Positions 33,891 to 62,644 of a stretch of 64,000 nucleotides of DNA are shown one piece after another. Source of the stretch: an uncultured Bacteroidales bacterium (lineage in GTDB: Bacteria > Bacteroidota > Bacteroidia > Bacteroidales > UBA932); NCBI GenBank assembly GCA_905235675.1, contig CAJONC010000013.1, positions 1 to 64,000 of the forward strand, given 5' to 3'. Position 1 is the stretch's first letter, and every line of letters begins with the position of its first letter. The position numbers and the translations under genes were made by a program. Under the pieces are notes generated by a model. The model was not told where the DNA came from, did not search any database, and saw nothing but the letters and a program-made list of their open reading frames with translations.

Positions 33891-33974
33891 CAGATAGTTA
33901 CGTAAAATCGTCTGGTGAAAATGTACCAGACGAATATGAGTAAAAGATTGATAATCAGATATAAACTCGCAGCG

Positions 33975-46800: not shown

Positions 46801-47187
46801 GAATTTGCGAAACTCGGTGCCTCCAACACGGATATAGCTACCGCAGACTTCACTTACGACGGCCTGCATGTATTCTGGTCCAACAAGAGCAAGTACAACA
46901 CTACCTTCCTGCAGTGGGGAGGCAAGAGCTCCGGTACTGACCGCTATGTCAGCTTTACTGCACCCGAGCAGGGAACGCTGAAAGTATGGGCGTCCAACAC
47001 CGGCAGTTCCGAGGACCTTACCCGAATGGTGACGGTCGACGTGGACGGAGACGTGCAGTCGCTTCCCGGCGGATATTCGAGCAATACTCCTACGGAAGTG
47101 GAGTTCAGCGTGAATGCCGGCGAGGTTAAGATATATCCTACCGGAAACGGCCTGCGCTTCTATCATATTTACTATACAAACCAGTAA
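43870..47187 (+). CDS. PUL surface lipoprotein (DUF4957/DUF5123-like beta-helix, Fn3-like domains, duplicated C-terminal module)
   Basis: Lipobox FAGC; Fn3-like N-terminus; beta-helix segment; C-terminal tandem copies of WDF...LGASNTDIATADFT...LRFY. Confidence 0.75.
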   Translation: MNYKNIIKTVLAALASAALFAGCAREEFVENTELTLKRCLEPQNLSARVDAATGDNVTFGWDVNKDAGEFELSVYTDEEMTVLEKIWTLSPSEVPFTVRLTADQKYWFTVRAYKVDKDGVKVESTSSNLAVYDGNVKTYAVKDNLFLEVTGRSETSVSLSWSKEVADFEEVTEISAVPVKGGKTVKYTLSDADRKAAAATVPGLEASTEYQITLFYMSASRGTVDTFTKAAKGNAIVISTSDELKTAFLTGGEYYLSYSEEGYSMGTAKPVAGISIVGELSSDGSKPVVSGKIELTADLATQGDDLHFENIKFDGAAGSRIVEHTGGSPVVGKVEFVNCEITNFMSGFFYGNNANVVKIGQFIFDSCDMYGILGSGGDAFDIRQTTEIDEIAFVNNTISDGIRTLFRIDASDAIKIGHIDFENNTVKNVSTMDDGNNRGIFAVRVAHEMTLKNNLFLWEDGGKTDDTDRCQLFQVNANTVVPTFRTAAGNYSYAQGKDFFTQVSAQTAGFISMNVDPCYNSKGNFFQLAAQDLIENQVGASKWWIPYVEKPEDLTQGVITAAHVWNLQDASLFAGNVKNSRVRDELMLVGTEATPLNADGGINFTTASVLSRKGVPTEGYASFKVNKAGSVDMLLSDPDKTGASVVAALYDDNGFSVQGGAVASSANPGVQKIVVPEVNGEGTIYLYSSGAVSITKLAWSEDVLAGNRVLETPKPVVEPVTLTEGDETAVTVTWEAIDNAANYVVVFNKRAQEPQTELSFTVPAEDIAELKAGLYSFTVQAFPREDDIYYQKSEQGGASFAIQPKGQAGELVEVTLTWDFSDADWQTEFAKLGASNTDIATADFTLNGLHVFWSNKSKYNTTFLQWGGKSSGTDRYISFTAPEQGTLKVWASNTGSSEDLTRMVTVDVDGDVQSLPGGYSSNTPTEVEFSVNAGEVKIYPTGNGLRFYKVEFTYSYMKGGSTPVEYDWDFSTSDWQAEFAKLGASNTDIATADFTYDGLHVFWSNKSKYNTTFLQWGGKSSGTDRYVSFTAPEQGTLKVWASNTGSSEDLTRMVTVDVDGDVQSLPGGYSSNTPTEVEFSVNAGEVKIYPTGNGLRFYHIYYTNQ
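46321..47163 (+). repeat. Two tandem copies of a ~390-bp module, period 450 bp
   Basis: 46321-46713 and 46771-47163: the last ~340 bp of each are nearly identical at DNA level (few substitutions seen by eye). Confidence 0.9.
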
Positions 47188-47246
47188 TGACTTTTTGGGG
47201 ATCCGGGCCTGACCGCCCGGCTCCCTCCGACTTTAACAATAAGAAT

Positions 47247-48662
47247 ATGAGCTTTATCAACGAAGATTTCATGCTGCAGACCGACACTGCGAAGCAGCTG
47301 TACCATGAGCATGCGGAGCACATGCCCATCATCGACTACCACTGCCATCTTGTTCCCCAGCAGATTGCCGAGAACATACAGTTCCGCGACATCACCCAGC
47401 TCTGGCTGGTGGACGGACACTATGGCGACCATTACAAGTGGCGCGCGATGCGTGCCAACGGCGTGAGCGAAGACTATCTCACCGGAGGGAAGCACACGGC
47501 CTGGGAAACCTTCGGGAAATGGGCCGAAACCGTGCCCTACACCATGCGCAACCCCCTCTATCACTGGACACATCTGGAGCTGAGCCGCGTCTTCGGCATA
47601 GACAAACTCCTGTGCCCCGCCACCGCGCGTGAAATCTTCGACGAATGCAACGCCAAGCTCGCGACTCCTGAATACCGCGGACAGGCCCTTATCAGCAAAT
47701 TCAACGTCAAGGTGGTCTGCACCACCGACGACCCTGCCGACGACCTCCGCTGGCACAGGATGATAGCGGAGCATCCCTTCGGCACCAAGGTCGTTCCCGC
47801 CTGGAGGCCCGACAAGGCTATGGCTATCGAGGATCCCAAGGCCTACAAGGAGTATCTCGCCAAACTCGGCGAAGCTGCGGGGATGGAGATAGACTCCTAT
47901 ACTGACCTCATCGAAGCCCTGCAGAAGAGGCACGATTTCTTTGCAGCCAACGGCTGCCGCCTCTCCGACCACGGGCTCGAAACCTTCTACTCCGCCGACT
48001 ACAAGCAGCTCGAAGTTGAGGCCATCTTCAAGATGGTGCTCCTCGGCAAGCGCCCTTCGGAAGGCGAGCTGGAGAAGTTCCGCAGCGCCTTCCTGCACGA
48101 TATGGCGGTAATGGACGCCGAGGCAGGCTGGGCACAGCAGTTCCATGTGGGAGCCATACGCAACAACAACTCCAAGATGTTCAAGCTGGTAGGCCCCGAC
48201 ACAGGCTACGACGCCATCCACGACCTTCCTACCGCGGCCGCGGGCCACAGGTTCTTCGACCGTCTCGAAGCCGAAGGCAAGCTCGCCAAGACCATACTCT
48301 ACTGCCTCAATCCCAAGGATAACGAGGTGATGACGGTGATGGCCTACACCTTCAACGACGGCAGTTTCCCCGGCAAGATGCAGTTCGGCTCCGGCTGGTG
48401 GTTCCTCGACCAGGAAGACGGTATGCGCAAGCAGCTCAACGCTCTCTCCGCCCTCGGACTTCTCAGCCGCTTCGTGGGAATGCTCACCGACAGCCGGTCC
48501 TTCATCAGTTATCCCCGCCACGAGTACTTCCGCCGCATCCTCTGCGACGTGATAGGAAAAGATGTCGAAGAAGGCCGCCTGCCCGCTTCGGAGCTCGACT
48601 TCATAGGGAAGATGGTGGAAGACATCAGCTACAACAATGCCGACCGCTATTTTGGATTCTAA
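47247..48662 (+). CDS. uxaC: Glucuronate/galacturonate isomerase
   Basis: IDYHCHLVPQQIAENIQFRDITQLWLVDGHYGDHYKWRAMRANGV; C-terminal ISYNNADRYFGF. Confidence 0.95.
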   Translation: MSFINEDFMLQTDTAKQLYHEHAEHMPIIDYHCHLVPQQIAENIQFRDITQLWLVDGHYGDHYKWRAMRANGVSEDYLTGGKHTAWETFGKWAETVPYTMRNPLYHWTHLELSRVFGIDKLLCPATAREIFDECNAKLATPEYRGQALISKFNVKVVCTTDDPADDLRWHRMIAEHPFGTKVVPAWRPDKAMAIEDPKAYKEYLAKLGEAAGMEIDSYTDLIEALQKRHDFFAANGCRLSDHGLETFYSADYKQLEVEAIFKMVLLGKRPSEGELEKFRSAFLHDMAVMDAEAGWAQQFHVGAIRNNNSKMFKLVGPDTGYDAIHDLPTAAAGHRFFDRLEAEGKLAKTILYCLNPKDNEVMTVMAYTFNDGSFPGKMQFGSGWWFLDQEDGMRKQLNALSALGLLSRFVGMLTDSRSFISYPRHEYFRRILCDVIGKDVEEGRLPASELDFIGKMVEDISYNNADRYFGF

Positions 48663-48674
48663 CAAATCTGCAAT

Positions 48675-50114
48675 ATGGAAAGATTAAACCGTACAAGCGC
48701 CCCCCAGGCCAAGCAATATACCGAAAAGGTGATTCAGTTCGGAGAAGGCAACTTCCTCCGCGCATTCATAGAATGGATAATCTGGAAGACTAACCAGAAA
48801 ACCGATTTCAACGCATCCGTAGTGGTTGTCCAGCCCATTGACAAGGGCATGGTGGACATGCTCAACGAGCAGGACGGCCTCTATCATCTCAATCTGCAGG
48901 GGCTGCAGGACGGCAGGCCCGTCGACAGCATCGACCTGATTGACGTGATTTCCCGCGGCATCAATCCCTACCGCGACTTCCAGGACTACCTCAGGCTCGC
49001 GGAACAGCCCGAGATGCGTTTCATCATCTCCAACACCACCGAGGCGGGCATCGCATTCGACCCCTCCTGCAAGTTCACCGACGCACCCGCGAGCTCCTAT
49101 CCGGGCAAGCTCGTCCAGCTGCTTTACCATCGCTATGAATACTTCAAGGGAGACGTCACCAAGGGATTCATCATCTTCCCCTGTGAACTTATCTTCCTGA
49201 ACGGCAAGCACTTGAAGGAGTGCATCTACCAGTACATCGACCTCTGGAACCTCGGGGAAGGCTTCCGCAGCTGGTTCGAGACCGCCTGCGGAGTCTACTG
49301 CACCCTGGTGGACCGCATCGTGCCCGGATATCCCCGCGACAATGCCGCGGAACTCTGCGAGCGCGTGGGATACGAAGACCATCTGCTCGACAAGGCGGAA
49401 ATCTTCCACCTCTGGGTGATCGAGGCCCCGAAGGAGGTTGCCGAGGAGTTCCCTGCCGACAAGGCTGGCCTGAACGTGCTCTTCGTGCCCAGCGAGGCGC
49501 CCTACCACGAAAGGAAGGTCACCCTGCTGAACGGCCCCCATACCGTGCTGTCGCCCGTGGGATACCTCAGCGGGCTGAATACCGTGCGCGAATGCTGCGA
49601 GGATGAACTTATCGGCGCCTTCGTGAAGAAGGTGATGTACGACGAGCTCCTTCCCACCCTGAACCTCCCCGAAGAAGAGCTGCTGAAGTTCGCGGGCGAC
49701 GTTCTCGAGCGCTTCCGCAACCCCTTCGTGAAGCACTTTGTCACCAGCATCATGCTGAACTCCTTCCCCAAGTTCAAAACGCGCGACCTTCCCGGCCTCA
49801 AGACCTACCTCGAGCGCAAGGGAGAGCTGCCCAAGGGCATAGTGCTCGGCCTGGCGGCCATCTGCACCTACTACAAGGGCGGAAAGAGGGGAGAGGATGA
49901 GATAGTGGTGAACGACGACGAAGCCATCAAGAAGCTCCTGCTCGACCTCTGGGCGACGGGCGATGTGGCCGCCGTCGCGAAGGGCGTGCTCGCTGCGGAA
50001 TTCATCTGGGACGAAGACCTGAACGCCATCCCCGGACTTACCGCAATGCTCACCGACGACCTTGCCCTCGTGCAGAAGGAAGGCATGCGTGCCGCAGTGA
50101 AATCCATACTGTAG
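48675..50114 (+). CDS. uxaB: Tagaturonate reductase (altronate oxidoreductase)
   Basis: VIQFGEGNFLRAFIEWIIWKTN; mannitol-dehydrogenase-like C-terminus; sits between uxaC and uxaA. Confidence 0.93.
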   Translation: MERLNRTSAPQAKQYTEKVIQFGEGNFLRAFIEWIIWKTNQKTDFNASVVVVQPIDKGMVDMLNEQDGLYHLNLQGLQDGRPVDSIDLIDVISRGINPYRDFQDYLRLAEQPEMRFIISNTTEAGIAFDPSCKFTDAPASSYPGKLVQLLYHRYEYFKGDVTKGFIIFPCELIFLNGKHLKECIYQYIDLWNLGEGFRSWFETACGVYCTLVDRIVPGYPRDNAAELCERVGYEDHLLDKAEIFHLWVIEAPKEVAEEFPADKAGLNVLFVPSEAPYHERKVTLLNGPHTVLSPVGYLSGLNTVRECCEDELIGAFVKKVMYDELLPTLNLPEEELLKFAGDVLERFRNPFVKHFVTSIMLNSFPKFKTRDLPGLKTYLERKGELPKGIVLGLAAICTYYKGGKRGEDEIVVNDDEAIKKLLLDLWATGDVAAVAKGVLAAEFIWDEDLNAIPGLTAMLTDDLALVQKEGMRAAVKSIL

Positions 50115-50115
50115 C

Positions 50116-51651
50116 ATGGCGGATTTTATAAAGATAAACCCGGCCGACAATGTTGCCGTAGCGCTCCATCCCCTCCCTAAGGGGATGGCTGCTCTGGGCG
50201 TGACACTCCTGTGCGACGTGCCGCAGGGGCACAAGTTTACCCTGAAGGCTCTTGCCGAAGGCGATGACGTGATAAAGTACGGATATCCGATAGGGCATGT
50301 TACGAAAGACGTCCCCGCCGGCACCTGGATAGACCACTCCTGCATCAAGACCAAGCTCTCCGGCCTCCTGGAGTACACCTACAACCCTGTCCCTGAAGTT
50401 GAAAAGGAGCCGGAAATACCGACCGGCGAGCATTTTTCCTGCGAGCAGGCGGCATTATCCGGCGCAGCCCCCGCAACATTCCGAGGTTTCCGCCGTGCCG
50501 ACGGCCAGGTAGGCATTCGCAACCAGATATGGGTAATCCCCACCGTAGGCTGCGTCAACGGCATCTGCGAACAGATAGTCGGCAGATTCAAGGAAGAACT
50601 TGCAGAACAGCAGGCCGGCAACGTCGACGCCATCGTCTGCTTCCCCCACAACTACGGCTGCTCCCAGCTCGGCGGCGACCACGAAAACACCAGGCAGATA
50701 CTTGCCGACATGGTGCACCATCCCAACGCCGGAGGTGTGCTGGTAGTCAGCCTCGGCTGCGAAAACAACCAGCTGGACGCCTTCCGCGAACTGGTGGGCC
50801 CCGTCGACGGTGACCGTGTAAAAATGTTTGTATGCCAGAAAGTTGAGGACGAAGTCGGATACGGCGTGCAGTGCCTTCGCGAAATCTATGCTGCCTGCAG
50901 GGACGACGTGCGCGAAGAAGTTCCCGTGAGCGAACTTCGCGTCGGCCTCAAATGCGGAGGATCCGACGGCCTTTCCGGCATCACCGCCAACCCTCTTCTG
51001 GGCGTATTCTCCGACTGGCTCGTGGCACAGGGAGGCACTACCGTGCTGACCGAGGTTCCCGAAATGTTCGGTGCTGAAACAATACTGATGAACCGCTGCC
51101 AGGATGAGGAAACCTTCGCCCGGACAGTGGATCTGATAAATGACTTCAAGGATTATTTCATGAAGCAGGGCATGCCCGTGTACGAGAATCCTTCCCCCGG
51201 CAACAAGGCCGGAGGCATCTCCACCCTCGAAGAAAAGTCCCTGGGATGCACCCAGAAATGCGGATCTTCCATAGTGCGCGGCGTCCTGAAATACGGAGAG
51301 AGGCTGGACAGGAAGGGCTTGAACCTCCTAAGCGCCCCCGGGAACGACCTTGTGGCTTCCACCGCCCTTGCGGCCTCGGGATGCCAGATCGTTCTCTTTA
51401 CCACCGGCCGCGGCACCCCCTTCGGCAGTTTCGTGCCCACAATGAAAATATCCACGAATTCGCAGATTGCGGCCCTCAAGCCAGGCTGGATAGATTTCAA
51501 CGCCGGAGTTCTCGTGGAAGATGCCACGATGGACGAACTTGCGCTGCGCTTCCGCGACTATGTGCTCGCCGTCGCAAGCGGGGAACCCGTCAACAACGAA
51601 AAGCACTCGATACGCGAAATCGCCATTTTCAAGACAGGAGTCACACTTTAA
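50116..51651 (+). CDS. uxaA: Altronate dehydratase
   Basis: SAF-like N-terminus; GFRRADGQVGIRNQIWVIPTVGCVN; KCGGSDGLSGITANP. Confidence 0.95.
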   Translation: MADFIKINPADNVAVALHPLPKGMAALGVTLLCDVPQGHKFTLKALAEGDDVIKYGYPIGHVTKDVPAGTWIDHSCIKTKLSGLLEYTYNPVPEVEKEPEIPTGEHFSCEQAALSGAAPATFRGFRRADGQVGIRNQIWVIPTVGCVNGICEQIVGRFKEELAEQQAGNVDAIVCFPHNYGCSQLGGDHENTRQILADMVHHPNAGGVLVVSLGCENNQLDAFRELVGPVDGDRVKMFVCQKVEDEVGYGVQCLREIYAACRDDVREEVPVSELRVGLKCGGSDGLSGITANPLLGVFSDWLVAQGGTTVLTEVPEMFGAETILMNRCQDEETFARTVDLINDFKDYFMKQGMPVYENPSPGNKAGGISTLEEKSLGCTQKCGSSIVRGVLKYGERLDRKGLNLLSAPGNDLVASTALAASGCQIVLFTTGRGTPFGSFVPTMKISTNSQIAALKPGWIDFNAGVLVEDATMDELALRFRDYVLAVASGEPVNNEKHSIREIAIFKTGVTL

Positions 51652-51663
51652 AACCAACGGCTG

Positions 51664-52716
51664 ATGGACATCGGACAAAACGTTACAATCAAGGATATAG
51701 CCCGCCTGACCGGACTTTCCAAAGGAACGGTCGACCGTGTGCTGCACAACCGCGAAGGCGTCTCCAAAAAGAGTTACGCCAAGGTGATGCAGGTGATAAA
51801 AGACCTCGGTTACGAGCCCAACATCTATGCATCTCTGCTTGCACAGAACAAAAAGCGCCAGATTGCCGTTCTTCTGCCGAATTACAGGAAAGGGGAGTAC
51901 TGGGAACTGTGCGAGCAGGGCATCGCGAAGGGCGCTGAAATCGGAAAGCCTTTCGGAATCGAAATCCGCAGGGTAGGTTACAACCAGTACAATCTGGGAT
52001 CTTTCCGCAAGGCCTGCGAAGAAGTTCTTGAGATGGACCCTGCAGGGGTTATCCTCGCTCCGATGTTCAAGAAGGAAACCTTCGTTTTCGTGGAAAAACT
52101 GCATTCCATGGAGATTCCCTATGTGTATGTGGATACCAAACTGGAGAGCAACAACTATCTGGCTTATTACGGTATTCCGCTGTACCAGAGCGGATATCTC
52201 TGCGCGGCCATACTAACGGACAGGCAATGCCCCAAGGAGGTGGCCGCGGTGCGTATACAGCGCGACAAGCAGGGCCAGTCCGACCCTACAATCAACCGCA
52301 GGGAAGGATTTGAGGATTATATCTCCGAACGCTGGCCGCAGTGCCGGATCAGCAGTGTCTTCATAGATCCTAAGAAGCCGGAAGAGATAGACGGCATACT
52401 CGAGGAATTCTTCGCCGCGCATCCCGACGTATCGCACATCGCAATGTTCAATTCCAGGATTTACCTAATCACTCCATTCCTGGAAAGACATCCCGAAAGG
52501 CAGTTCAGGGTGGTCGGTTTCGACAACCTCTCCGCCAATCTCGCCGGTCTGAACAAGGGCGTAGTGACTGCACTTATCGCCCAGCGGCCCGGGCTTCAGG
52601 TACAGCACGCCATCGAAGCACTGACCGATCTGCTCGTCTTCGGCAAGGTCCCCGCCCGTAACGACAACTTCATGTCCATGGACATCCTTACCCGCTATAA
52701 TGCTGAATATTATTGA
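51664..52716 (+). CDS. LacI-family transcriptional regulator
   Basis: N-terminal HTH VTIKDIARLTGLSKGTVDRVLHNREGVSKKSYAKVMQVIKDLGYEPN. Confidence 0.93.
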   Translation: MDIGQNVTIKDIARLTGLSKGTVDRVLHNREGVSKKSYAKVMQVIKDLGYEPNIYASLLAQNKKRQIAVLLPNYRKGEYWELCEQGIAKGAEIGKPFGIEIRRVGYNQYNLGSFRKACEEVLEMDPAGVILAPMFKKETFVFVEKLHSMEIPYVYVDTKLESNNYLAYYGIPLYQSGYLCAAILTDRQCPKEVAAVRIQRDKQGQSDPTINRREGFEDYISERWPQCRISSVFIDPKKPEEIDGILEEFFAAHPDVSHIAMFNSRIYLITPFLERHPERQFRVVGFDNLSANLAGLNKGVVTALIAQRPGLQVQHAIEALTDLLVFGKVPARNDNFMSMDILTRYNAEYY

Positions 52717-52733
52717 TATACAACAAAACAACT

Positions 52734-53768
52734 ATGCCAAGAATCGTTACTTTCGGTGAGATAATGCTCCGGCTTGCGACGCCGGGTTATCTCCGTTTCT
52801 CCCAGGCAGACACTTTGAACGCCACTTTCGGCGGAGGTGAAGCCAATGTCGCGGTATCCCTTGCAAATTACGGCTGCGATGCTGAATTCGTTACACGTTT
52901 CCCTGACAACGATATAGCCAAAGCCTGCATCGCCGACCTCCACAAGCACGGAGTCGGCACAGGGAACTGCGTCTTCGGAGGCGAGCGCCTCGGAATCTAT
53001 TTCCTTGAAACAGGCGCAGTTGCACGCCCCAGCAAAGTGGTTTACGACCGCGCCCATTCCGCCATCTCCGAGATTCAGCCCGGCATGATAGACTGGGACA
53101 AGGTCCTCGAAGGCGCCGACTGGTTCCATTGGACCGGCATCACCCCTGCAATCAGCCAGGGCGCTGCCGACGTGTGCCTGGAAGCCGTAAAGGCCGCCAA
53201 CCGTCTCGGCGTCACCGTGTCTTGCGACCTAAACTACCGCAAGAATCTCTGGAAATACGGCAAGAAGGCCTCCGAAGTGATGCCCGAACTCGTGTCCTGC
53301 TCCGACATCATCCTCGGCAATGAGGAAGACGCTGAAAAGGTCTTCGGAATCAAGCCCGAGGGCTTCGATGTAACCGCCACCGGCGGCCAGGTAGACCAGC
53401 AGCGCTTCCAGAGCGTAGGCGAGCAGCTTATGGCTAAATTCCCCCGCGCAAAGAAGGTCATCATCACGCTGCGCGGCAGCATCAATGCCAACCACAATAC
53501 CTGGGGAGGTGTGCTCTGGGATGGTAAAACCCTCTACGAGTCAAAACGTTACGATATTACCCACATAGTCGACCGCGTAGGCGGGGGCGACTCCTTCATG
53601 GGCGGCCTGATATATGGCCTCCTCAACTTCGACGACCAGAAAGCCCTCGACTTTGCAGTCGCCGCATCCTGCCTCAAGCACACCATCTACGGCGACTATA
53701 ATCTCGTCACCGTAGCGGAGGTGGAGAACCTTATGAAGGGCGACGGCTCAGGAAGGGTATCAAGATAA
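52734..53768 (+). CDS. kdgK: 2-dehydro-3-deoxygluconokinase (PfkB family)
   Basis: TFGEIMLRLATPGYLRFSQADTLNATFGGGEANVAVSLA; VDRVGGGDSFMGGLIYGL. Confidence 0.9.
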   Translation: MPRIVTFGEIMLRLATPGYLRFSQADTLNATFGGGEANVAVSLANYGCDAEFVTRFPDNDIAKACIADLHKHGVGTGNCVFGGERLGIYFLETGAVARPSKVVYDRAHSAISEIQPGMIDWDKVLEGADWFHWTGITPAISQGAADVCLEAVKAANRLGVTVSCDLNYRKNLWKYGKKASEVMPELVSCSDIILGNEEDAEKVFGIKPEGFDVTATGGQVDQQRFQSVGEQLMAKFPRAKKVIITLRGSINANHNTWGGVLWDGKTLYESKRYDITHIVDRVGGGDSFMGGLIYGLLNFDDQKALDFAVAASCLKHTIYGDYNLVTVAEVENLMKGDGSGRVSR

Positions 53769-54566
53769 CGCCTTGTCATTTGTTTTCATAAAGATGAGCG
53801 CCATCAGCGGTAATGCCAGTATTGCCATGGTGGCGCTTATCGGCAGATAGATTCCGAAGTTGGCGTACTGCACCACCAGGAAGGTGACAAGCAGCAGGCC
53901 CACCCCCATCGCAGCGCTTATCAGGTAGTGCTTGCGTATGTCCGTGCTACTGCAGATCAGCCTGCTGAGGTTGGGGATGCCGAGGGAAATGAAGCCTATG
54001 GGCCCGCAGATGCTTACGCAACTCGTTACCAGGCACATTATTGCAAGCAGCATCAGGGCCTTGTCCCTGTTCGGGATTTCGCATTCGCCGCAGAAATGGG
54101 CGCTCAGCCTGCGGGCCTGGGTGAGAGCCGCGGCCAGCCCCACCGCAAACAGGCAGAGGGAGAAAATGATATCTGACGTGGTGACGCCTTCAAGCCTGAA
54201 ATTCGCCGCCCCCCAGAGGTAGTATTTCTTCAGCAGATCCCCGTTGGGTGCATTGGTAACCACTATGGTTCCGAGCGAGCCTATGAAAGTGCCGAACAGT
54301 ATTCCGAAAGTTATCAGCTGCTGGGTGCTCACCTTCAGGGTGACGAAGAAGCATATCAGCGTGCATATCAGGGTGCAGATGAAACTTCCCACCGTGAGGC
54401 TGCACCACCCGCTCATGGTTGCTGCGGCGGCTCCGAGGCAGGCCGCGCTGCCGAGTCCGAGGCTGTAGACGTCCCCCAGCTGGTTGCGCCAGAGATACTG
54501 CATCTGTATACCTCCCACCGGCAGGGCAATCCCCGACAGAATTACATATAAAAGACTGAGTATCAT
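53760..54566 (-). CDS. btuC: FecCD/BtuC-type ABC transporter permease, apparently N-terminally short
   Basis: 268 aa starting directly at SGIALPVGGIQMQYLWRNQLGDVYSLGLGSAACLGAA (internal in typical FecCD permeases); GPIGFISLGIPNLSRLI C-terminal motif; third gene of the riboswitch operon. Confidence 0.72.
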   Translation of the reverse strand: MILSLLYVILSGIALPVGGIQMQYLWRNQLGDVYSLGLGSAACLGAAAATMSGWCSLTVGSFICTLICTLICFFVTLKVSTQQLITFGILFGTFIGSLGTIVVTNAPNGDLLKKYYLWGAANFRLEGVTTSDIIFSLCLFAVGLAAALTQARRLSAHFCGECEIPNRDKALMLLAIMCLVTSCVSICGPIGFISLGIPNLSRLICSSTDIRKHYLISAAMGVGLLLVTFLVVQYANFGIYLPISATMAILALPLMALIFMKTNDKALS

Positions 54567-54570
54567 ATTC

Positions 54571-56526
54571 TTACCAATTTAATTCCAGGTTTATCATTGC
54601 GTTTGTGCCCGGCATGGGATAGCCCTGTACTATCTCGTAGCGCCGGTTGAAGACATTGTTGCAGCTGAGTCCGACCGAGAGCCCCGCACGGGGCAGGGGT
54701 ATGCTGCGGCGAATCGAGAGGTCGCTGGAGCTCCAGGGTGCGATGCGGTAGTCGGCGGTGTTCGCGGAGCGCGACCATCTTTCCCCTGTGAGGCCGGTGT
54801 CCCACGCAAGGGCCCATCTCTCCCACGAGGCCGTGAATGAGATGCTTCCGCTGTGCAGGGGGATGTACGGCAGCTGGTTTCCCCAGGTGAGGCTCCCCTC
54901 CGTACTGTGGTCCAGCGCCCTTTGCAGGGAGTACCTGAGGCAGAGGCTGAGGGAAAGCCCTTCGCGGAGATATTCCTCCTCAAGTTTCAGGTCCGCCCCC
55001 GTGATGTCGGCCCTGCCTATGTTGAGCATGGTCCAGCGGAACTGCGAGGAAGTGGGGATGGCAACTATTTTGTTGGTGACGCGGTTATAGTATGGAGATA
55101 TCCTCGCGAGCGTGTGCCAGGCTCCGTGCTGCCTTTCGAGCCTTATGTCCGCCCCTGCCTGCGAAGCGCTTTCCGGCTGCAGGGACGAATTCCCCATCTG
55201 GCTGTAGTAGAGGTCGTTGAAGGAGGGGAGGCGGTAAGTCTTCTTTGCGTAGATATCAAGTTCCAGCCAGTCGGCTGGAGTCCAGTACAGGCTTGCGGAG
55301 GGCATCCATGCGTTTCTAAAACCGTCTTCGCCGCTCCATCCTCCGGCCTGTGGAGTTTTCAGCCTGTCCCATGCCCCGAGGCAGACCATGCTTGCGGAAG
55401 CGCGGACTTTATCGTAGATCATGCGACAGGCAAGAGCCGCCCAGATGCTGGTCCGGCGGGGAGTCACGAACTGCCCCACGTCCGAATCGAGGGCGTTCTC
55501 CAGCAGGTCGGTGCTGAAGTCCACCGACCAAGGCTGCGAAATTGTATAAGATTGTGCGAGTGACAGATACGCCGATTTCTGACGGTAGTGGAGGTCGCAT
55601 GGTATGGCCATGGGATTCTTCTCCGGATGCGTGGCGTAGTGCATGTAGCTGTCGGAAAATTTGAACTTCAGCGCGGTGGAATAGCGGGTGGTCCAGTCCC
55701 TGTTCCATCCTCCCCGGATGAAGGCGTCCATGTCCTCCTGGCGTTCGGCGCTGAAGGGAAAGCCGGCCGCCCTGCGTATCACCGGCCCCGGGTAGCCCCT
55801 CTCCGAAGCATAGCCGCAGGCGTGCAGGTCCCATTCTCCTCCGGCGATGTTCCCGTAGAGGCGCCCTTCCAGCCGCAGTGCGCCAATGTCGCCGTTCTCC
55901 CTCACGAGGGTGGTGTCGAAGCAGGGATAGCGATACCTTCCGTTGCTTGTCAGGAACTCCGCTTCCGTCCTGAGGGCCAGGTTCTTTCCATGCAGTTTGT
56001 CCCATTTCACGGAGGGATTGAAGGTGCCGGATGAACCCCCGCGAAGCCTGAATTTGAGCGCATCGTGCTCCGGACGGGAGGCCTCCAGATGCACCGCAGC
56101 CCCCGAAGCATATTCCCTCGCGCTTTGCAGCCGATTGGAACTCATGGCGTTGAAAAGGCTTACGGAAGATATTCCTTCGGTGGAGAATCTGCCCAGATCC
56201 ACCTGCATGTTCTGGGCATTGTCAATCTGGACTCCGTCCAGGAAAATGCCCACGTGCTCGCTTCCGAGGCTGCGCACGTTCACCGTCTTGAGTCCTCCCA
56301 CTCCGCCGTAATCCTTCAGCTGCACCCCCGTGAAATGCCTCAGCACGTCCGCAACCTGCATGGGGATGGCTACCTGCGAAGGGATGAACAGTTCCTCCGA
56401 GGCGCGCACCACCGGCCTTTCCCTTGCCGACAGCACGCTTGCCGCGACGAGGGTATCCGCTTCCTGTGCGTTTGCCAGGCAGGAAACGGATGCAAAAATT
56501 ATTGCTATGAAATGCCTTCCGGTCAC
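54571..56526 (-). CDS. btuB: TonB-dependent receptor (BtuB-like corrinoid transporter)
   Basis: Plug domain VADVLRHFTGVQLKDYGGVGGLKTVNVRSLGSEHVGIFLDGVQIDN; C-terminal barrel ending YEIVQGYPMPGTNAMINLELNW; downstream of a cobalamin riboswitch. Confidence 0.85.
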   Translation of the reverse strand: MTGRHFIAIIFASVSCLANAQEADTLVAASVLSARERPVVRASEELFIPSQVAIPMQVADVLRHFTGVQLKDYGGVGGLKTVNVRSLGSEHVGIFLDGVQIDNAQNMQVDLGRFSTEGISSVSLFNAMSSNRLQSAREYASGAAVHLEASRPEHDALKFRLRGGSSGTFNPSVKWDKLHGKNLALRTEAEFLTSNGRYRYPCFDTTLVRENGDIGALRLEGRLYGNIAGGEWDLHACGYASERGYPGPVIRRAAGFPFSAERQEDMDAFIRGGWNRDWTTRYSTALKFKFSDSYMHYATHPEKNPMAIPCDLHYRQKSAYLSLAQSYTISQPWSVDFSTDLLENALDSDVGQFVTPRRTSIWAALACRMIYDKVRASASMVCLGAWDRLKTPQAGGWSGEDGFRNAWMPSASLYWTPADWLELDIYAKKTYRLPSFNDLYYSQMGNSSLQPESASQAGADIRLERQHGAWHTLARISPYYNRVTNKIVAIPTSSQFRWTMLNIGRADITGADLKLEEEYLREGLSLSLCLRYSLQRALDHSTEGSLTWGNQLPYIPLHSGSISFTASWERWALAWDTGLTGERWSRSANTADYRIAPWSSSDLSIRRSIPLPRAGLSVGLSCNNVFNRRYEIVQGYPMPGTNAMINLELNW

Positions 56527-57767
56527 TGCCAGACGGCGAAATGTCCGGGGCAGACACCTGAGGTCACGCTCCAGATGCGGGCGTTTTCATTGAAATCCAG
56601 CTGATAGCAGGAAACGCTTCCGGGATTGAAATAGTCGCCGGCATCGCCAACGATTGCGTAATGCGTGTCCAGCGTTCCAGGGCCTTTCACTACAGCCATG
56701 CCATAGGGTGTGCCGTCGAGCTCCAGCGGATACAGCTCTATTTTACCTTTGCCGGTCGAGACATCTTCTGTATGCACGGACCAGACGTTATATTTGTGAG
56801 TGGCGCTCCAGTCGAATTCATTCTCCGTGCCAATGCAATAGACCGTGTCCTCCAACAGGAAGGCACAGCTTACGTGCAGGGCTTCTTCCTTGATAATCGT
56901 TCCTTCTCCCACCCTTTGGACGTGTGAGGGGTCGGAGGCGGGGAAGGCGTACAACGCAGTATGTACGTCCCAGAAATTGCCGAGGTTTGTCACGTATATT
57001 GTGCCCTTGCCGTCGGAGAAAACCTGCTTGAGGTTCACCTCCACCTCCTGCGTGCCGGCAAGCTTGAAACTTTCGGTATCTATGATGCTTACGGTGTTGT
57101 CGTAGGAATATGCCGGCGGAAGCTGGCTGGAGATGCCTCCGGAGTTGGCAACATAGAGTTTCCCGTTGAAGCAGGCTATGCCTTCCGGCTGGTAGCCGAC
57201 TTCCACCGATCCTTCCACCTTCTTGGTACTCAAGCTGATACGGTAAACCTGCCCCTTGGGATTCTTGTAGTCGGTAACGGAATAATAGCCGCTGTCGTAC
57301 GAGCCTGTGGCGTAAGCTCCGGCCCAGGATGTTACATAGGCATACCGGTCGTCGAAGGCGATGCAGCGGGGAGTGGGAACGGCGATGGCGGCGATTTCGG
57401 TCTCGTCCTTTGCTGAGAGCACTTCCACTATGCCGGAATTGTTCACCGCAATCCAGACTTCGTCGCCGTGAATGGCGATGTCGTTTCCGGTGTCGCCGAG
57501 GCCCGCGGATTCGGAAGGATTCATCTTCCTGAATGCGGAAGTGACATAGTTGCCGTCGGAAATACGCAGAAAGTCGAGGGTGGCGTTGTTGGAACCCATC
57601 CCGCCTTCATTAAGCACGAAAATTTTTTTGAGGCCCTTGTCAAAACCCGAAACATCCACGGCCTCTCCGCTTAGTTCAGCGTCTTTGTAAACGATGGTTT
57701 CGGGATCTTTACGGCATGCACACAGGCCCAGCACGCCGCACAGCAGTAAAACTGTTGTCTTTTTCAT
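56523..57767 (-). CDS. btuG: BtuG-like surface lipoprotein (YncE/DUF5074-type beta-propeller)
   Basis: MKKTTVLLLCGVLGLCACRKDPE lipobox; repeated propeller blades (GNDIAIHGDEVWIAVNNSGIVEVLSAKD, GIACFNGKLYVANSGG); first gene after the cobalamin riboswitch; start revised from ORF-track 57818. Confidence 0.8.
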   Translation of the reverse strand: MKKTTVLLLCGVLGLCACRKDPETIVYKDAELSGEAVDVSGFDKGLKKIFVLNEGGMGSNNATLDFLRISDGNYVTSAFRKMNPSESAGLGDTGNDIAIHGDEVWIAVNNSGIVEVLSAKDETEIAAIAVPTPRCIAFDDRYAYVTSWAGAYATGSYDSGYYSVTDYKNPKGQVYRISLSTKKVEGSVEVGYQPEGIACFNGKLYVANSGGISSQLPPAYSYDNTVSIIDTESFKLAGTQEVEVNLKQVFSDGKGTIYVTNLGNFWDVHTALYAFPASDPSHVQRVGEGTIIKEEALHVSCAFLLEDTVYCIGTENEFDWSATHKYNVWSVHTEDVSTGKGKIELYPLELDGTPYGMAVVKGPGTLDTHYAIVGDAGDYFNPGSVSCYQLDFNENARIWSVTSGVCPGHFAVWQ

Positions 57768-57785
57768 TGAAAATAGATTTACGTT

Positions 57786-57935
57786 TTTGCCGGAGCTTGT
57801 CCCCGAGCTCCTTAGCATAACTTGACTGCGGCAGGTTCCTGGCTTGTTTTCACAGTTGCGGGCACAGTTCCGGACTTACACCGGATTCCCTTTTGAGCTC
57901 GCCGGTTAATCCCCTTTAAGAGCACCGTAATCCGA
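57786..57935 (-). ncRNA. Cobalamin riboswitch
   Basis: Minus strand: GGTGCTCTTAAAGGGGATTAACCGGCGAGCTCAAAAGGGAATCCGGTGTAAGTCCGGAACTGTGCCCGCAACTGTGA...GCCAGGAACCTGCCG; GGGAA-N-CGGTG...TCCGG-N-CTGTGCCCGCAACTGT is the hallmark core. TATCTTTG -7-like box just upstream. Confidence 0.95.
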
Positions 57936-57978
57936 GGCAAAGATAAAGTTTTTTATTGGTTTTTAGGCGACAAAAAAC

Positions 57979-57986
57979 TATATTTG
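57979..57986 (+). promoter_or_regulatory. -7 box candidate for the methyltransferase operon
   Basis: TATATTTG matches TAnnTTTG, only 6 nt before the likely ATG at 57993. Confidence 0.5.
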
Positions 57987-57992
57987 CAATAT

Positions 57993-59252
57993 ATGACAGG
58001 AAAAGAGAGAATTCGTACGGTCCTTGACCATAAGGAAGCCGACAGGGTGGCCATGGACTTTGGTTCCACGCCGGTGTCCGGCATGCATTGCAGGATTGTC
58101 GAGGCTCTGCGCCGCCACTACGGGCTGGACGACCATCCGGTCTATGTCCACGAAGCGGGGCAGATGCTCGGCTACATCGAGGACGACCTCGCCGAGGCGC
58201 TCGGCATCGATACCATAGGATGCTTTTCCCCGAACAATGCCATCGGGGTTCCCAACCGGGACTGGAAAGAATACAGGATGCCCTGGGGGCAGGTTGTTAT
58301 GCTTCCTGCCCGCATGGCGGATTCCTTCACTGAAAAAAACGGCGGACTCTACACCTATCCCGAAGGGGACAATACACTTCCTCCCTCCGGCTACATGCCC
58401 GAAGGAGGATATTTCTTCGATTCGATAGAACGCCAGAACGGGGAGATTGACGATGACAATCTCAATGTCGAGGACAATCTGCAGGAGTTCGGCGAGGTGG
58501 ACGACGCCACCCTCGAATACTGGAAAACCACGGTGGACAGGGCCGCGGAAAGCGGAAGGGCAGTGGTTGCCGGATTCGGCGGAATGGCCCTCGGCGATGT
58601 GGCGAGGATAATTTCAATGGCAATACGCGAGCCGAGGGGCATACGCAGCGTTGCAGAGTGGTACATGTCGACGGTATGCCGTCCGGATTACATAAAAGAG
58701 ATGTTCGACCGCATTTCCGCGCTTGCAGTCAGGAATCTCGAAAAAATTCACGATGTGGTGGGCGAGAAGGTGGACGTGGTCTATGTCTGCGGCGCCGATT
58801 TCGGCACACAGACCAGCCAGTTCCTTTCGGTGGACACTTTCCGCGAACTGTATCTTCCCTATTACAAGAGGATGAACGACTGGATTCACGGGAATACCAC
58901 CTGGAAAACTTTCAAACACAGCTGCGGCGCGGTATATCCCCTGATGGACAGTTTCATCGATGCCGGATTCGACATCATCAACCCAGTGCAGATTGCCGCC
59001 GCCGTAATGGACCCGCAGAAGCTGAAGGATGAATTCGGCAGCCGGATTACTTTCTGGGGCGGGGGAATCAATACCCAGAAAACCCTCCCGTTCGGCACTC
59101 CGGCCGAAATCCGCGAAGAGGTCTTCCGCCTTTGCGACATATTCTCGAAAGACGGAGGTTTCGTGTTCAATTCGATACACAACATCCAGGCGAACGTTCC
59201 GGTTGAAAATGTCGTTGCCTTGATGGAGGCAATAAAAGAAGTCAGGTCATAG
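57993..59252 (+). CDS. URO-D family corrinoid-dependent methyltransferase-like protein
   Basis: MTGKERIRTVLDHKEADRVAMDFGS...FKHSCGAVYPLMDSFIDAGFDIINPVQ...FWGGGINTQKTLPFGTPAEIREEV...GGFVFNSIHNIQANVPVENVVALMEA; next gene is a corrinoid protein. Confidence 0.85.
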   Translation: MTGKERIRTVLDHKEADRVAMDFGSTPVSGMHCRIVEALRRHYGLDDHPVYVHEAGQMLGYIEDDLAEALGIDTIGCFSPNNAIGVPNRDWKEYRMPWGQVVMLPARMADSFTEKNGGLYTYPEGDNTLPPSGYMPEGGYFFDSIERQNGEIDDDNLNVEDNLQEFGEVDDATLEYWKTTVDRAAESGRAVVAGFGGMALGDVARIISMAIREPRGIRSVAEWYMSTVCRPDYIKEMFDRISALAVRNLEKIHDVVGEKVDVVYVCGADFGTQTSQFLSVDTFRELYLPYYKRMNDWIHGNTTWKTFKHSCGAVYPLMDSFIDAGFDIINPVQIAAAVMDPQKLKDEFGSRITFWGGGINTQKTLPFGTPAEIREEVFRLCDIFSKDGGFVFNSIHNIQANVPVENVVALMEAIKEVRS

Positions 59253-59253
59253 T

Positions 59254-59871
59254 ATGGATAATCTTTACGAAGCAATTTTCAAAGGGAACGCCCCTGCGGC
59301 CAAAGTTTCGGTGCAGGAAGCCCTGAACGCATCCAGGACGCCCCAGGAAATCATCGATTCTTCAATGATTCCTGCAATGGAAGCCATAGGAGCGGAATTC
59401 GAAGCCGGACGGGTGTTCGTTCCGAACCTGCTTCTGAGCGCCCGCGCAATGAAGGTTTCCCTGGATATTCTCAAGCCGCTGATGGTCGCGGAGCAGTCCG
59501 CTTCCCTCGGCACCGTGGTAATCGGCACCGTGAAGGGAGACCTGCACGATATAGGCAAGAACCTGGTGGCTTCGATGCTCGAAGGCCGCGGATTCAAGGT
59601 GATAAACCTCGGCAACGATGTATCCAAGGAGCGTTTCGTGGAGGAGGCTGCGGCGAATGATGCCGACCTTGTCTGCCTGTCCGCCCTGCTCACCACCACC
59701 ATGGGCTATATGAAGGACGTGGTGGATGCGGTGCACGGGGCCGGCCTCAGGGCCAAGGTCATGATAGGCGGCGCTCCCGTGACAGCGGAATTCGCCGAGC
59801 AGATAGGTGCTGACGGATACAGTTCCAATGCGAACGATGCGGTAGCCCTTGCAAAACAACTGCTTTCATGA
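59254..59871 (+). CDS. Methyltransferase cognate corrinoid (B12-binding) protein
   Basis: GTVKGDLHDIGKNLVASMLEGRGFKVINLGNDVSKERFVEEA (DxHxxG cobalamin lower-axial motif); N-terminal helical cap; VMIGGAPVTAEFAEQIGADGYSSNANDAV. Confidence 0.95.
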   Translation: MDNLYEAIFKGNAPAAKVSVQEALNASRTPQEIIDSSMIPAMEAIGAEFEAGRVFVPNLLLSARAMKVSLDILKPLMVAEQSASLGTVVIGTVKGDLHDIGKNLVASMLEGRGFKVINLGNDVSKERFVEEAAANDADLVCLSALLTTTMGYMKDVVDAVHGAGLRAKVMIGGAPVTAEFAEQIGADGYSSNANDAVALAKQLLS

Positions 59872-60533
59872 TGAAGGAACGGGCTTTTTCCATAAGTCCG
59901 GACATCATACCCGAAAAAGATGTCTGGTTTGCGATGGGCTACAGGGATTCCGTCCCTGAGCCCCGCATCCGTGACATGGTGAACGAAGTGAAGGATCTGC
60001 TGGTTCCGAAGGCGGTCCTGAAATATATGTACGGGGAGTTCGAGGCGGAGAAGATATCTCCCCGCGAAATGCTCGTTGCCGGAAAACGCTTCCGCCCGGA
60101 AGGGATTATATGCTCCTATCTGCAGGGAATGACGCATGCTCTTGTCTTCGTTGCCACTGCGGGCAGGGAGTACGATGCGGCCGTGAAGGAGATGAACGCG
60201 CAGGGGGACATAGTGCAGGATTTCATTGCCGACGCCATCGGGACGGTGCTTGCGGAATATGCCGTTTCGGCCATTGAGGAAGATTATGAAGGGAAATACG
60301 GAATATCCCTTCCCTACAGCCCCGGCTACTGCGACTGGGACATACGCGAACAGCAGATACTCTTTTCCCTTTTCCCCGTGAATCCGTGCGGAATCGTCCT
60401 TTCGGATTCCTCGCTGATGAGTCCCGAAAAATCCGTCAGCGGCTTCTACGCCCTCGGAGAAACCCTTGTGAAACAACCATATCATTGTGAGATATGCAGG
60501 AACCCGGGTTGTTACAAAAGAAGGACGGCTTAG
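59868..60533 (+). CDS. MetH activation-domain-like protein (B12-dependent methionine synthase reactivation domain family)
   Basis: YGISLPYSPGYCDWDIREQQILFSLFPVNPCGIVLSDSSLMSPEKSVSGFYALGE...CEICRNPGCYKRR; matches the stand-alone MetH activation-domain pattern; overlaps the corrinoid gene by 4 nt. Confidence 0.82.
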   Translation: MMKERAFSISPDIIPEKDVWFAMGYRDSVPEPRIRDMVNEVKDLLVPKAVLKYMYGEFEAEKISPREMLVAGKRFRPEGIICSYLQGMTHALVFVATAGREYDAAVKEMNAQGDIVQDFIADAIGTVLAEYAVSAIEEDYEGKYGISLPYSPGYCDWDIREQQILFSLFPVNPCGIVLSDSSLMSPEKSVSGFYALGETLVKQPYHCEICRNPGCYKRRTA

Positions 60534-60541
60534 CGTCGGGG

Positions 60542-61969
60542 ATGAGCTCTTTCCGTTGGTGGATGTGCGCGATGCTTTTCTTCGCCACGACCATCAACTA
60601 CATGGACCGTCAGGTGCTGTCCCTCACTTATGAGGAGTTCATAAAGCCCGAGTTCCGCTGGACCGATGCCGAGTACGGGACAATTACCGGTTTCTTCTCC
60701 ATCTTCTATGCTGTCGCGTGCCTTTTTGCAGGCAAGTTCATCGACTGGATAGGAGTGAAGCGCGGTTACATCATCTCCATAGTGGTATGGTCCGTGGGTG
60801 CGTGCATGCACGCGGGCACCGCCTGGGCCACTGCAAGGCTCACCGGTCTCGATTCGGTGTCCGCCCTGAGGGCCCTGGACGCAGGGAGCAACATTGCCCT
60901 TGCGGTTTCCACCACCTCGGTTTATCTGTTCATGCTGTGCAGGGGAGTCCTGGCTTTGGGCGAGGCGGGCAATTTCCCGTCTGCCATAAAGGTTACCGCT
61001 GAGTACTTCCCCAAGAAAGACAGGGCTTTCGCCACCTCAATCTTCAATGCAGGGGCCTCCGTAGGCGCGATAGTCGCTCCTTTATGCGTGCCGACGCTAG
61101 CGAAGCATCTGGGCTGGGAGATGGCTTTCATAATAGTTGGCGGTCTGGGTTTCATCTGGGTTTTCTTCTGGGAATTCATGTACGATAAGCCGGAGGAGAA
61201 CAGGAAGGTGAATGCCGCCGAACTGGAGTATATAAATCAGGATTCCGGCCCGGAAGGCGCGGACGGCGGGGAAGATGCCTCAAAGAGCATCCCTCTCGGC
61301 AAGTGCCTGAAATACAGGCAGACCTGGGCGGCCATATTCGGGAAATTCATCTCCGACTGCGTGTGGTGGTTTTTCCTGTTCTGGGCGCCGTCTTATTTCG
61401 ATACCCAGTTCGGGGCCAAGGCCAGTTCCGTCGAAGGAAAGATGCTGCTTATCACCCTCTATGCCATCTGTGCGGTGCTTTCCATCTTCGGGGGCTATGT
61501 GCCCAAATACTTCGTGGAAAAGAAGGGTATGCATCCCTTCGATGCGAGGATGCGTGCTATGCTCATATTCGCGATGTTTCCATTGTTTGCGATACTTGCC
61601 CAGCCTCTCGGGGGATATTTCAATTCTCCCTGGTGGCCGGCGGTCCTGATAGGCCTTGCAGCCGCAGGACACTCCGCATGGGCCGCGAATGTGTACAGCT
61701 ATATAGGGGATCTCTTCCCCAAGAATACCATCGCTACCATGACCGGGCTTTGCACCCTTGCCGGAGGTATTTCCACAATGGCCCTGCAGAAGATAGCGGG
61801 GAATCTCTTTACCTATGCGGAGAATGCCGGCGCCGCCTTCACTTTCCTTGGATTTGAAGGAAAGCCTGCGGGATATTTCATAATTTTCTGTTATTGCGGC
61901 ATAGCATATCTTTTGTCGTGGGTAATAATGAAAGCCCTTGTTCCAAGTTACAAACCAGTTGAAATCTAA
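60542..61969 (+). CDS. exuT: MFS transporter, hexuronate (ExuT)-type
   Basis: MSSFRWWMCAMLFFATTINYMDRQVLSLTYEEFIKPEFRWTDAEYGTITGFFSIFYAVACLFAGKFIDWIGVKRGY; ACS/ExuT-like; followed by eda. Confidence 0.87.
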   Translation: MSSFRWWMCAMLFFATTINYMDRQVLSLTYEEFIKPEFRWTDAEYGTITGFFSIFYAVACLFAGKFIDWIGVKRGYIISIVVWSVGACMHAGTAWATARLTGLDSVSALRALDAGSNIALAVSTTSVYLFMLCRGVLALGEAGNFPSAIKVTAEYFPKKDRAFATSIFNAGASVGAIVAPLCVPTLAKHLGWEMAFIIVGGLGFIWVFFWEFMYDKPEENRKVNAAELEYINQDSGPEGADGGEDASKSIPLGKCLKYRQTWAAIFGKFISDCVWWFFLFWAPSYFDTQFGAKASSVEGKMLLITLYAICAVLSIFGGYVPKYFVEKKGMHPFDARMRAMLIFAMFPLFAILAQPLGGYFNSPWWPAVLIGLAAAGHSAWAANVYSYIGDLFPKNTIATMTGLCTLAGGISTMALQKIAGNLFTYAENAGAAFTFLGFEGKPAGYFIIFCYCGIAYLLSWVIMKALVPSYKPVEI

Positions 61970-61978
61970 TCATTTATT

Positions 61979-62644
61979 ATGGCAAAATACGATAAATTAC
62001 AAGTCCTGACAGCCATCCGCGACACCGGCATAGTGCCGGTATTCTACAATGGCGACCTCGAAATCAGCAAGAACGTGCTGAAAGCCTGTTACGAAGGCGG
62101 CATCCGCGCCTTTGAATTCGCAAACCGCGGCGACTTCGCCCAGGAAGTTTTCGGCGAACTCGTAAAATATGCAAACAAGGAACTACCAGGAATGATAGTC
62201 GGAATAGGTTCCGTGGTTGATCCCGGCACCGCCGCCCTCTATATCCAGCTCGGAGCCAACTTCGTGGTGGGGCCTCTCTTCAATCCCGCAATCGCCCCTA
62301 TCTGCAACCGCAGGAACATCCCCTACGCCCCCGGCTGCGGCAGCGTCAGCGAGGTGGGTGCCGCCCAGGAAGCCGGCTGCGACCTCTGCAAGGTCTTCCC
62401 CGGCGACGTCCTCGGCCCTGCGTTCGTCAAGGGCCTCCGCGCCCCCATGCCCTGGAGCAAACTCATGGTAACGGGCGGTGTCAAACCCACCCGCGAGAAC
62501 CTCGAAGGCTGGTTCAAGGCCGGAGTCTTCTGCGTCGGAATGGGCAGCAACCTCTTCCCGAAAGACGTCATCGCTGCGGGGCAGTGGAGCAAAATCTCCG
62601 AGCTCTGCGCGGATGCACTGGCAATAGTTAAGGAAGTAAGGTAG
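61979..62644 (+). CDS. eda: KDPG/KHG aldolase
   Basis: [86 protein letters not shown]. Confidence 0.93.

Follow-up and report, generated by a model that had tools for sequence, protein, structure and literature searches.

Which compound gives up a methyl group to a three-gene corrinoid module in an uncultured Bacteroidales bacterium (GTDB lineage UBA932), and which compound receives it? The module, referred to here as the trio, lies in a 64,000-nucleotide stretch of contig CAJONC010000013.1 (assembly GCA_905235675.1, positions 1 to 64,000), the whole of which is called the window. A first-pass annotation, made from the letters of the window, described the trio as part of a pectin and uronate locus and left the methyl acceptor unknown. 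Our analysis indicates, at about an even chance, that the trio forms the donor half of a methionine synthase that depends on B12 and not on folate. The features concerned are the following.

57993 to 59252, plus strand: MT1, a URO-D-family corrinoid methyltransferase of 419 amino acids (Pfam URO-D, E 8.5e-18)
59254 to 59871, plus strand: corrinoid protein of 205 amino acids, MtgC/MtbC/MetH-type (B12-binding_2 and B12-binding domains; GDLHDIGKN, with the DLHDIG cobalamin motif)
59868 to 60533, plus strand: stand-alone MetH activation-domain protein of 221 amino acids (Met_synt_B12, E 7.4e-9)

Results

Methionine synthesis genes

Pfam and motif matches confirmed the composition given by the first-pass annotation (URO-D methyltransferase, corrinoid protein, MetH-activation protein). 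MT1 and the corrinoid gene are separated by 1 nucleotide, and the corrinoid and activation genes overlap by 4. The trio is not a chance arrangement, because 9 further genomes of the genus have orthologues at 80-84% identity, mostly in an unchanged gene order, and the pairwise dN/dS of MT1 was about 0.02-0.08 (pairs with estimable dS). The GC content of the trio cluster (0.551) was like that of its surroundings (0.55 for the window).

All absences of genes reported here were read from draft genome assemblies; that of the window genome (also labelled G000) is 2.2 Mb and 96% complete. Neither a full MetH nor MTHFR was found in it. The MetE-type catalytic domain (PF01717) had no match in the window genome, which leaves no member of the MesA-MesD group there, and no folate methyltransferase was present in it, the only pterin-binding protein being FolP. 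One Met_synt_B12 protein was found, the third gene of the trio. A strong candidate for the acceptor that the first-pass annotation had lacked was located outside the window, where contig C30 (L126 2732-4018) encodes a stand-alone homocysteine S-methyltransferase of 428 amino acids (PF02574, E 1.2e-83). By alignment, this protein is the N-terminal part of MetH and keeps the zinc Cys residues (NC..., GGCCG). A short folate-domain remnant without GERTN, NSxSLK or SGGxSN follows, and the B12 and activation domains are gone. Compared with a split MetH, the genome therefore has the homocysteine domain with its zinc Cys, lacks a functional folate (pterin) domain, and carries the B12 and activation domains on two further proteins. 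These are encoded by the second and third genes of the trio, and we infer them to be partners of the homocysteine module. The sequences themselves establish the protein families, the order and co-occurrence of the genes, the loss of the folate motifs and the absence of MetE, MTHFR and full MetH from the assembly.

A MetY orthologue (69%) was present in the window genome, so homocysteine can be made there. Given the likely acceptor and the absence of MTHFR, MetE and full MetH, the trio is probably part of methionine synthesis.

Survey of the genus

Conservation of the trio in Bacteroidales, a check proposed with the first-pass annotation, was examined in 151 genomes of the genus, with MT1 scored as present at ≥80% identity. 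Ten of the 151 carried the trio. Full MetH was absent from 8 of these 10, and MTHFR was missing in all 8. Seven of the 8 carried a protein consisting of the homocysteine module only (six of ~470-500 amino acids and the window's protein of 428), and a homocysteine-only protein of this type occurred in none of the ~57 MetH-less genomes without the trio (a divergent 777-amino-acid match in G308 lay outside the inspected set). The Fisher test of this association gave p ~1e-8, with kinship ignored.

A maximum-likelihood tree of the homocysteine domain placed the window protein within a group of full-length MetHs of the genus, with 100/99 support together with two of them (the bootstrap is rough). 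The six other modules formed a separate clade nearest to the MetH of G334, and in this clade purifying selection acted on the homocysteine module (dN/dS ~0.08-0.10) as well as on the folate-domain remnant. By this tree, the reduction of MetH to a homocysteine module happened twice independently in the genus, from different MetH genes. Outside the genus, a homocysteine methyltransferase gene was found within the MT1 cluster itself in L231 (Bacteroidia) and L186 (Bryobacterales). The genus count is a weaker argument than the two independent reductions and these two clusters.

An HCM-like protein of 738-790 amino acids in G357 and G368 was considered as a further methionine synthase and rejected, the zinc Cys being lost in the G357 copy. 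That copy (L129:5608-7824), which has a homocysteine-methyltransferase-like domain, lies beside V-ATPase-type genes.

Fold and zinc site of MT1

The AlphaFold2 model of MT1 had a pLDDT of 93, and its best matches in the PDB were 4ay8 and 4ay7 (M. mazei MtaA/MtbA-type methyltransferases), followed by URO-D and MetE. Alignment showed H309, C311 and H396 to be invariant in 45/45 sequences. H309-x-C311 fits the H-x-C motif, and in the alignment H396 takes the place of the Cys that is the third zinc ligand in MtaA. We propose a His-Cys-His zinc site, H309-x-C311...H396; the predicted metal ligands, whose loss was to have spoken against the first-pass annotation, are kept. S-methyltransferases of the UroD family have His-Cys-Cys, and O-methyltransferases swap one or both Cys residues (Kountz and Balskus, PMC10418091). 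The replacements named in that work are carboxylates or non-coordinating residues, and His as the third ligand of MT1 is an extension of its rule.

MT1 thus has the fold and the zinc-ligand positions of a URO-D-family methyltransferase of the donor type, with a cognate corrinoid protein and an activator in its cluster. Profile searches against the MtaA and CmuA subfamilies, as the first-pass annotation had advised, gave scores far under the cut-offs: the NCBIfam models of MtaA and CmuA matched at 40-46 bits against cut-offs of 235-400, and membership of the MtaA/CmuA/SCMT subfamily (methyl transfer to coenzyme M or another thiol) was rejected on the scores and on the His at the third ligand. 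Membership of MtaB (PF12176) was likewise rejected, MT1 having the URO-D domain only. No OdmB, VdmB or MtvB sequence was present in the collections searched, and none was hit in the PDB.

Relatives of MT1 at 52-59% identity were found in Bacteroidota, Planctomycetota, Verrucomicrobiota, Acidobacteriota, Spirochaetota and others. More distant paralogues (~32-34%) occur in polysaccharide loci (L138, L147, L149 and L150) with GH29, mutarotase, SusC/D or permease genes; these may demethylate other O-methyl sugars, such as methyl-fucose.

Activation protein and a lost gene

The activation protein was modelled by AlphaFold2 with a pLDDT of 89, and 19/19 PDB fold matches at E≤0.001 were MetH activation domains or pieces of MetH containing one. 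The protein has Met_synt_B12 only and no RACo/DUF4445 ASKHA domain, which excludes a RamA or RACo identity and supports the earlier suggestion of a MetH-type activator in place of RamA. RACo adjoins MT1 in only three other loci. Four Cys residues (C155 and C207-x2-C210-x4-C215) are invariant in 13 relatives and could form an Fe-S or zinc site; C155 has no Cys counterpart in 1j6r, the best solved relative. In the activation proteins of the genus the Arg of the S-adenosylmethionine (SAM) motif is Pro (alignment A3).

Clusters of the genus that could be read through have the order MT1, corrinoid protein, activation protein, MtaA-like URO-D protein and carrier of the major facilitator superfamily (MFS). 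The MtaA-like protein of these relatives (e.g. L114, L117, L118 and L119) has ~325 amino acids and a thiol-type site, His-x-Cys...Cys, and may act as a thiol acceptor or as another donor. In the window, its place is taken by a scar that overlaps the end of the activation gene and leads directly into the start of the MFS gene.

60509 to 60541, plus strand: deletion scar with the first codons of the lost MtaA-like gene (TTGTTACAAAAGAAG...), identified by comparison with L114, L117 and L119

The remark in the first-pass annotation that no second methyltransferase was visible thus stands for the window and fails for the relatives, which have the MtaA-like gene exactly at the window's deletion point. 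A second URO-D protein was not found in the window genome, which retains the donor half and the homocysteine module without the MtaA-like gene. The scar could also mark a cluster that is decaying after the loss of this gene and has no useful function. This is very improbable: none of the three open reading frames is broken, the residues of the active site are conserved, the genes still overlap and dN/dS is low.

A CobW-type GTPase gene adjoins the MtaA-like gene in the MT1 clusters of L133 and L230, and in L133 the MtaA-like gene is fused to a thioredoxin-like domain.

The methyl donor

The genes around the trio bear on the choice of donor.

60542 to 61969 (ATG at 60542), plus strand: MFS carrier, anion:cation symporter type (closest solved structure, D-galactonate transporter DgoT)
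61979 to 62644, plus strand: KDPG/KHG aldolase, Eda (profile match)
47187 to 53768, plus strand: hexuronate genes UxaC, UxaB, UxaA, LacI regulator and KdgK, upstream of MT1 (Uxa names assigned by eye, LacI and KdgK by profile)
33921 to 35624, plus strand: GDSL and pectinesterase (CE8) protein, a possible source of methanol in the pectin region shared with the trio

The coordinates agree with the first-pass annotation in its tight junctions and in the run of the trio into an MFS gene (after an 8-nucleotide gap) and a KDPG aldolase gene. GH28, the GDSL/CE8 pectinesterase and GH88 are farther upstream of the trio than the Uxa genes. The link to uronate genes described in the first-pass annotation holds in the window, and G357 has a GH28 gene directly upstream of MT1; in most relatives the cluster lies among housekeeping genes. 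The MFS gene follows the cluster in the genus loci read that far, and this DgoT/ExuT-like carrier is the sole constant neighbour of the cluster among relatives. The loci related to the window come from rumen and goat-stomach Bacteroidales assemblies.

Outside the genus, 87 non-redundant loci with MT1 relatives were surveyed. A sugar-metabolism gene lay at most three genes from MT1 in 45 of the 87; the sugar-gene clusters had been picked for their frequency near MT1, so the p value for near versus far enrichment was not used as a test. These genes encode Gfo/Idh oxidoreductases, sugar porters, GH120-type, GH29, GH2 and GH3 enzymes, ROK and hexokinase-type kinases, 3-keto-disaccharide hydrolases and SusC. 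A set of the wider loci has the corrinoid, activation and MtaA-like proteins together with MT1. Of the roles that the first-pass annotation had put forward, corrinoid methyl transfer is supported, and demethylation of a methylated, sugar-type donor is plausible. A sugar-acid donor is suggested by the carrier type, with DgoT as its closest solved relative, the adjacent uronate genes and the sugar context of MT1 relatives, and 4-O-methyl-glucuronate is our best single guess. The proposed His-Cys-His site, in its contrast to the His-Cys-Cys of S-methyltransferases, also counts in favour of an O-methyl donor.

Alternatively, the donor could be a methoxylated aromatic of the lignin type or methanol from pectin, the acceptor still being homocysteine. 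The URO-D family includes O-demethylases that act on phenyl methyl ethers (PMC10418091), and the CE8 pectinesterase lies in the same region as the trio. We regard such donors as decidedly unlikely. Methanol is used by MtaB (PF12176), which is a separate gene beside MT1 in three loci (L171, L213 and L214), so pectin-derived methanol, an option raised by the first-pass annotation, is disfavoured as the substrate of MT1; and among the recurrent neighbours of MT1 sugar genes recur while no aromatic genes were seen.

Cobalamin uptake operon

Beside MT1, a divergent minus-strand operon of BtuG-, BtuB- and BtuC-like genes (53760-57944) had been overlooked in the first reading.

57979 to 57986, plus strand: TATATTTG, candidate Bacteroidota-type -7 element, 14 nucleotides before the MT1 ATG
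57813 to 57944, minus strand: cobalamin riboswitch at the head of the uptake operon (RF00174, 70.4 bits)
56523 to 57767, minus strand: BtuG-like YncE-family surface lipoprotein (start moved to MKKTTVLLL, outside the riboswitch)
54571 to 56526, minus strand: BtuB-like TonB-dependent receptor (TIGR01779, E 2.7e-24, below the model cut-off)
53760 to 54566, minus strand: BtuC-like FecCD permease (profile match)

A cobalamin riboswitch divergent from MT1 was also present in G365 (L117) and G334 (L119), and L117 shares all three uptake genes with the window. Elements similar to the candidate -7 element were found at -31 in both loci, so that a Bacteroidota-type TAnnTTTG element lies 14-31 nucleotides 5' of MT1 in the window, L117 and L119. 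A search for riboswitches 5' of the homocysteine-module gene found none. The RT-5 small RNA (RF03026) occurred near the cluster in two genomes (L111:18391-18493 and L114:19143-19245).

Discussion

Proposed pathway

An O-methylated sugar acid, at best guess 4-O-methyl-glucuronate or a similar methyl-uronate, would be imported by the DgoT/ExuT-like carrier. MT1 would transfer its methyl group to cob(I)alamin on the corrinoid protein, leaving a free uronate for the neighbouring Uxa/Kdg/Eda pathway. The methyl-corrinoid protein would then methylate homocysteine on the stand-alone MetH-derived module encoded on the other contig, giving methionine. Oxidised corrinoid would be rescued by the activation protein, probably with SAM as in MetH, and the riboswitch-controlled BtuG/BtuB/BtuC system would supply the corrinoid. 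We infer every reaction step, the donor and the protein partnerships from sequence. The fuller statement, that a folate-free methionine synthase fed by O-demethylation of plant-polysaccharide sugars has made MTHFR dispensable, evolved at least twice in the genus and exists as a gene cluster elsewhere, is advanced tentatively, at somewhat less than an even chance.

Several observations weigh against this pathway. Full MetH and MTHFR are retained beside the trio in G334 and in G311, the largest genus genome with both systems (5% contamination), so the trio must do something else there as well. G365 (88% complete) has the trio and neither MetH nor the homocysteine module. MetY was not found in G314, G377 or G387, where the route could then only recycle homocysteine. 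The genus count weighs less because the trio genomes are related to one another, and the sugar genes vary between MT1 loci, so the donor may vary too. An MtaA-like methyltransferase with a thiol-type site, whose role our model does not explain, is present in most trio members of the genus. Finally, the homocysteine module is unlinked to the trio in the genus.

The lack of linkage would suit a homocysteine protein that acts independently of the trio and takes its methyl group from S-methylmethionine or a betaine, as other members of its family, the homocysteine S-methyltransferases, do. Chance or a shared ecology would then account for the co-occurrence. The module was derived twice from a cobalamin-dependent MetH and only in trio genomes, and a distinct homocysteine methyltransferase member lies inside the MT1 clusters of two other lineages; these points make independence from the trio highly unlikely.

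The genomes with normal MetH and MTHFR, and the MtaA-like gene with its thiol-type site, also speak for a dissimilatory role, in which methyl groups are stripped for sugar catabolism and dumped on a thiol (on folate in other lineages), the homocysteine module being incidental. MT1 relatives in sugar-degradation loci fit such a role, as does the MT1 cluster of L200 (Phycisphaerales), in which MT1 is accompanied by the classical folate route: a RACo activator, a corrinoid protein, a pterin-type methyltransferase and MTHFR. Against it, the MtaA-like gene is gone from the window genome, neither a folate methyltransferase nor MTHFR was found there, and within the genus the trio goes together with the reduction of MetH. 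A dissimilatory purpose seems unlikely.

Comparison with known systems

Methionine synthesis by the trio and the homocysteine module would resemble two systems with separate homocysteine-binding and corrinoid proteins and methionine as the product. Phaeobacter inhibens has a split methionine synthase, in which the homocysteine module and the corrinoid protein are distinct polypeptides that work together (PMC5764234), and MtgBCDE of Ruegeria pomeroyi couples demethylation to methionine synthesis, one corrinoid protein also accepting the methyl group of the demethylated substrate, glycine betaine (PMC12478193). Both retain a pterin (folate) subunit, which, like MTHFR, was not found in the window genome. 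Reactivation in Phaeobacter is by a RamA-like protein; here the activator is a MetH-type domain and the donor enzyme belongs to the URO-D family. The MesA-MesD proteins also convert homocysteine to methionine without methyl-folate, and the corrinoid-linked ones are thought to draw the methyl group from corrinoid proteins (PMC7857596), but they are MetE-type, whereas the window genome has a truncated MetH and a proposed O-methyl donor.

OdmB and VdmB (PMC3727330, PMC10418091), compared by their descriptions, share with the trio a three-component logic, and with MT1 the URO-D superfamily and a zinc site short of the full His-Cys-Cys. They differ in acting on phenyl methyl ethers, passing the methyl group to tetrahydrofolate and using an ATP-dependent activator. 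Type 1 mlp clusters also combine URO-D methyltransferases and a corrinoid protein without a folate methyltransferase, and methyl-thiol or methionine-salvage roles have been proposed for them (PMC10418091); the MtaA-like gene of the window's relatives resembles these Mlps. They have several His-Cys-Cys Mlps, a RamA-type activator and S or Se compounds as the presumed substrates, whereas the site of MT1 is His-Cys-His and MT1 is the only URO-D protein found in the genome. A literature search did not find corrinoid demethylation of methyl sugars or of 4-O-methyl-glucuronate. The only O-methyl-sugar demethylation it turned up was an aerobic P450 route for 6-O-methyl-galactose (PMC10033563).

Significance

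A function in anaerobic O-methyl-sugar demethylation is suggested for a large uncharacterised URO-D subfamily spread over Bacteroidota, Planctomycetota, Verrucomicrobiota, Acidobacteriota and Spirochaetota. If the proposed pathway is true, it would be a third logic for methionine synthesis besides methyl-folate-dependent MetE/MetH and the Mes proteins, with the methyl group taken from dietary plant sugars and methionine synthesis tied to glycan breakdown. It would account for a capacity to make methionine in gut Bacteroidales that have no MTHFR, MetE or full MetH and would otherwise be scored as methionine auxotrophs and, if confirmed by experiments, would be a new way of making an essential amino acid in Bacteroidales of the gut and rumen type.

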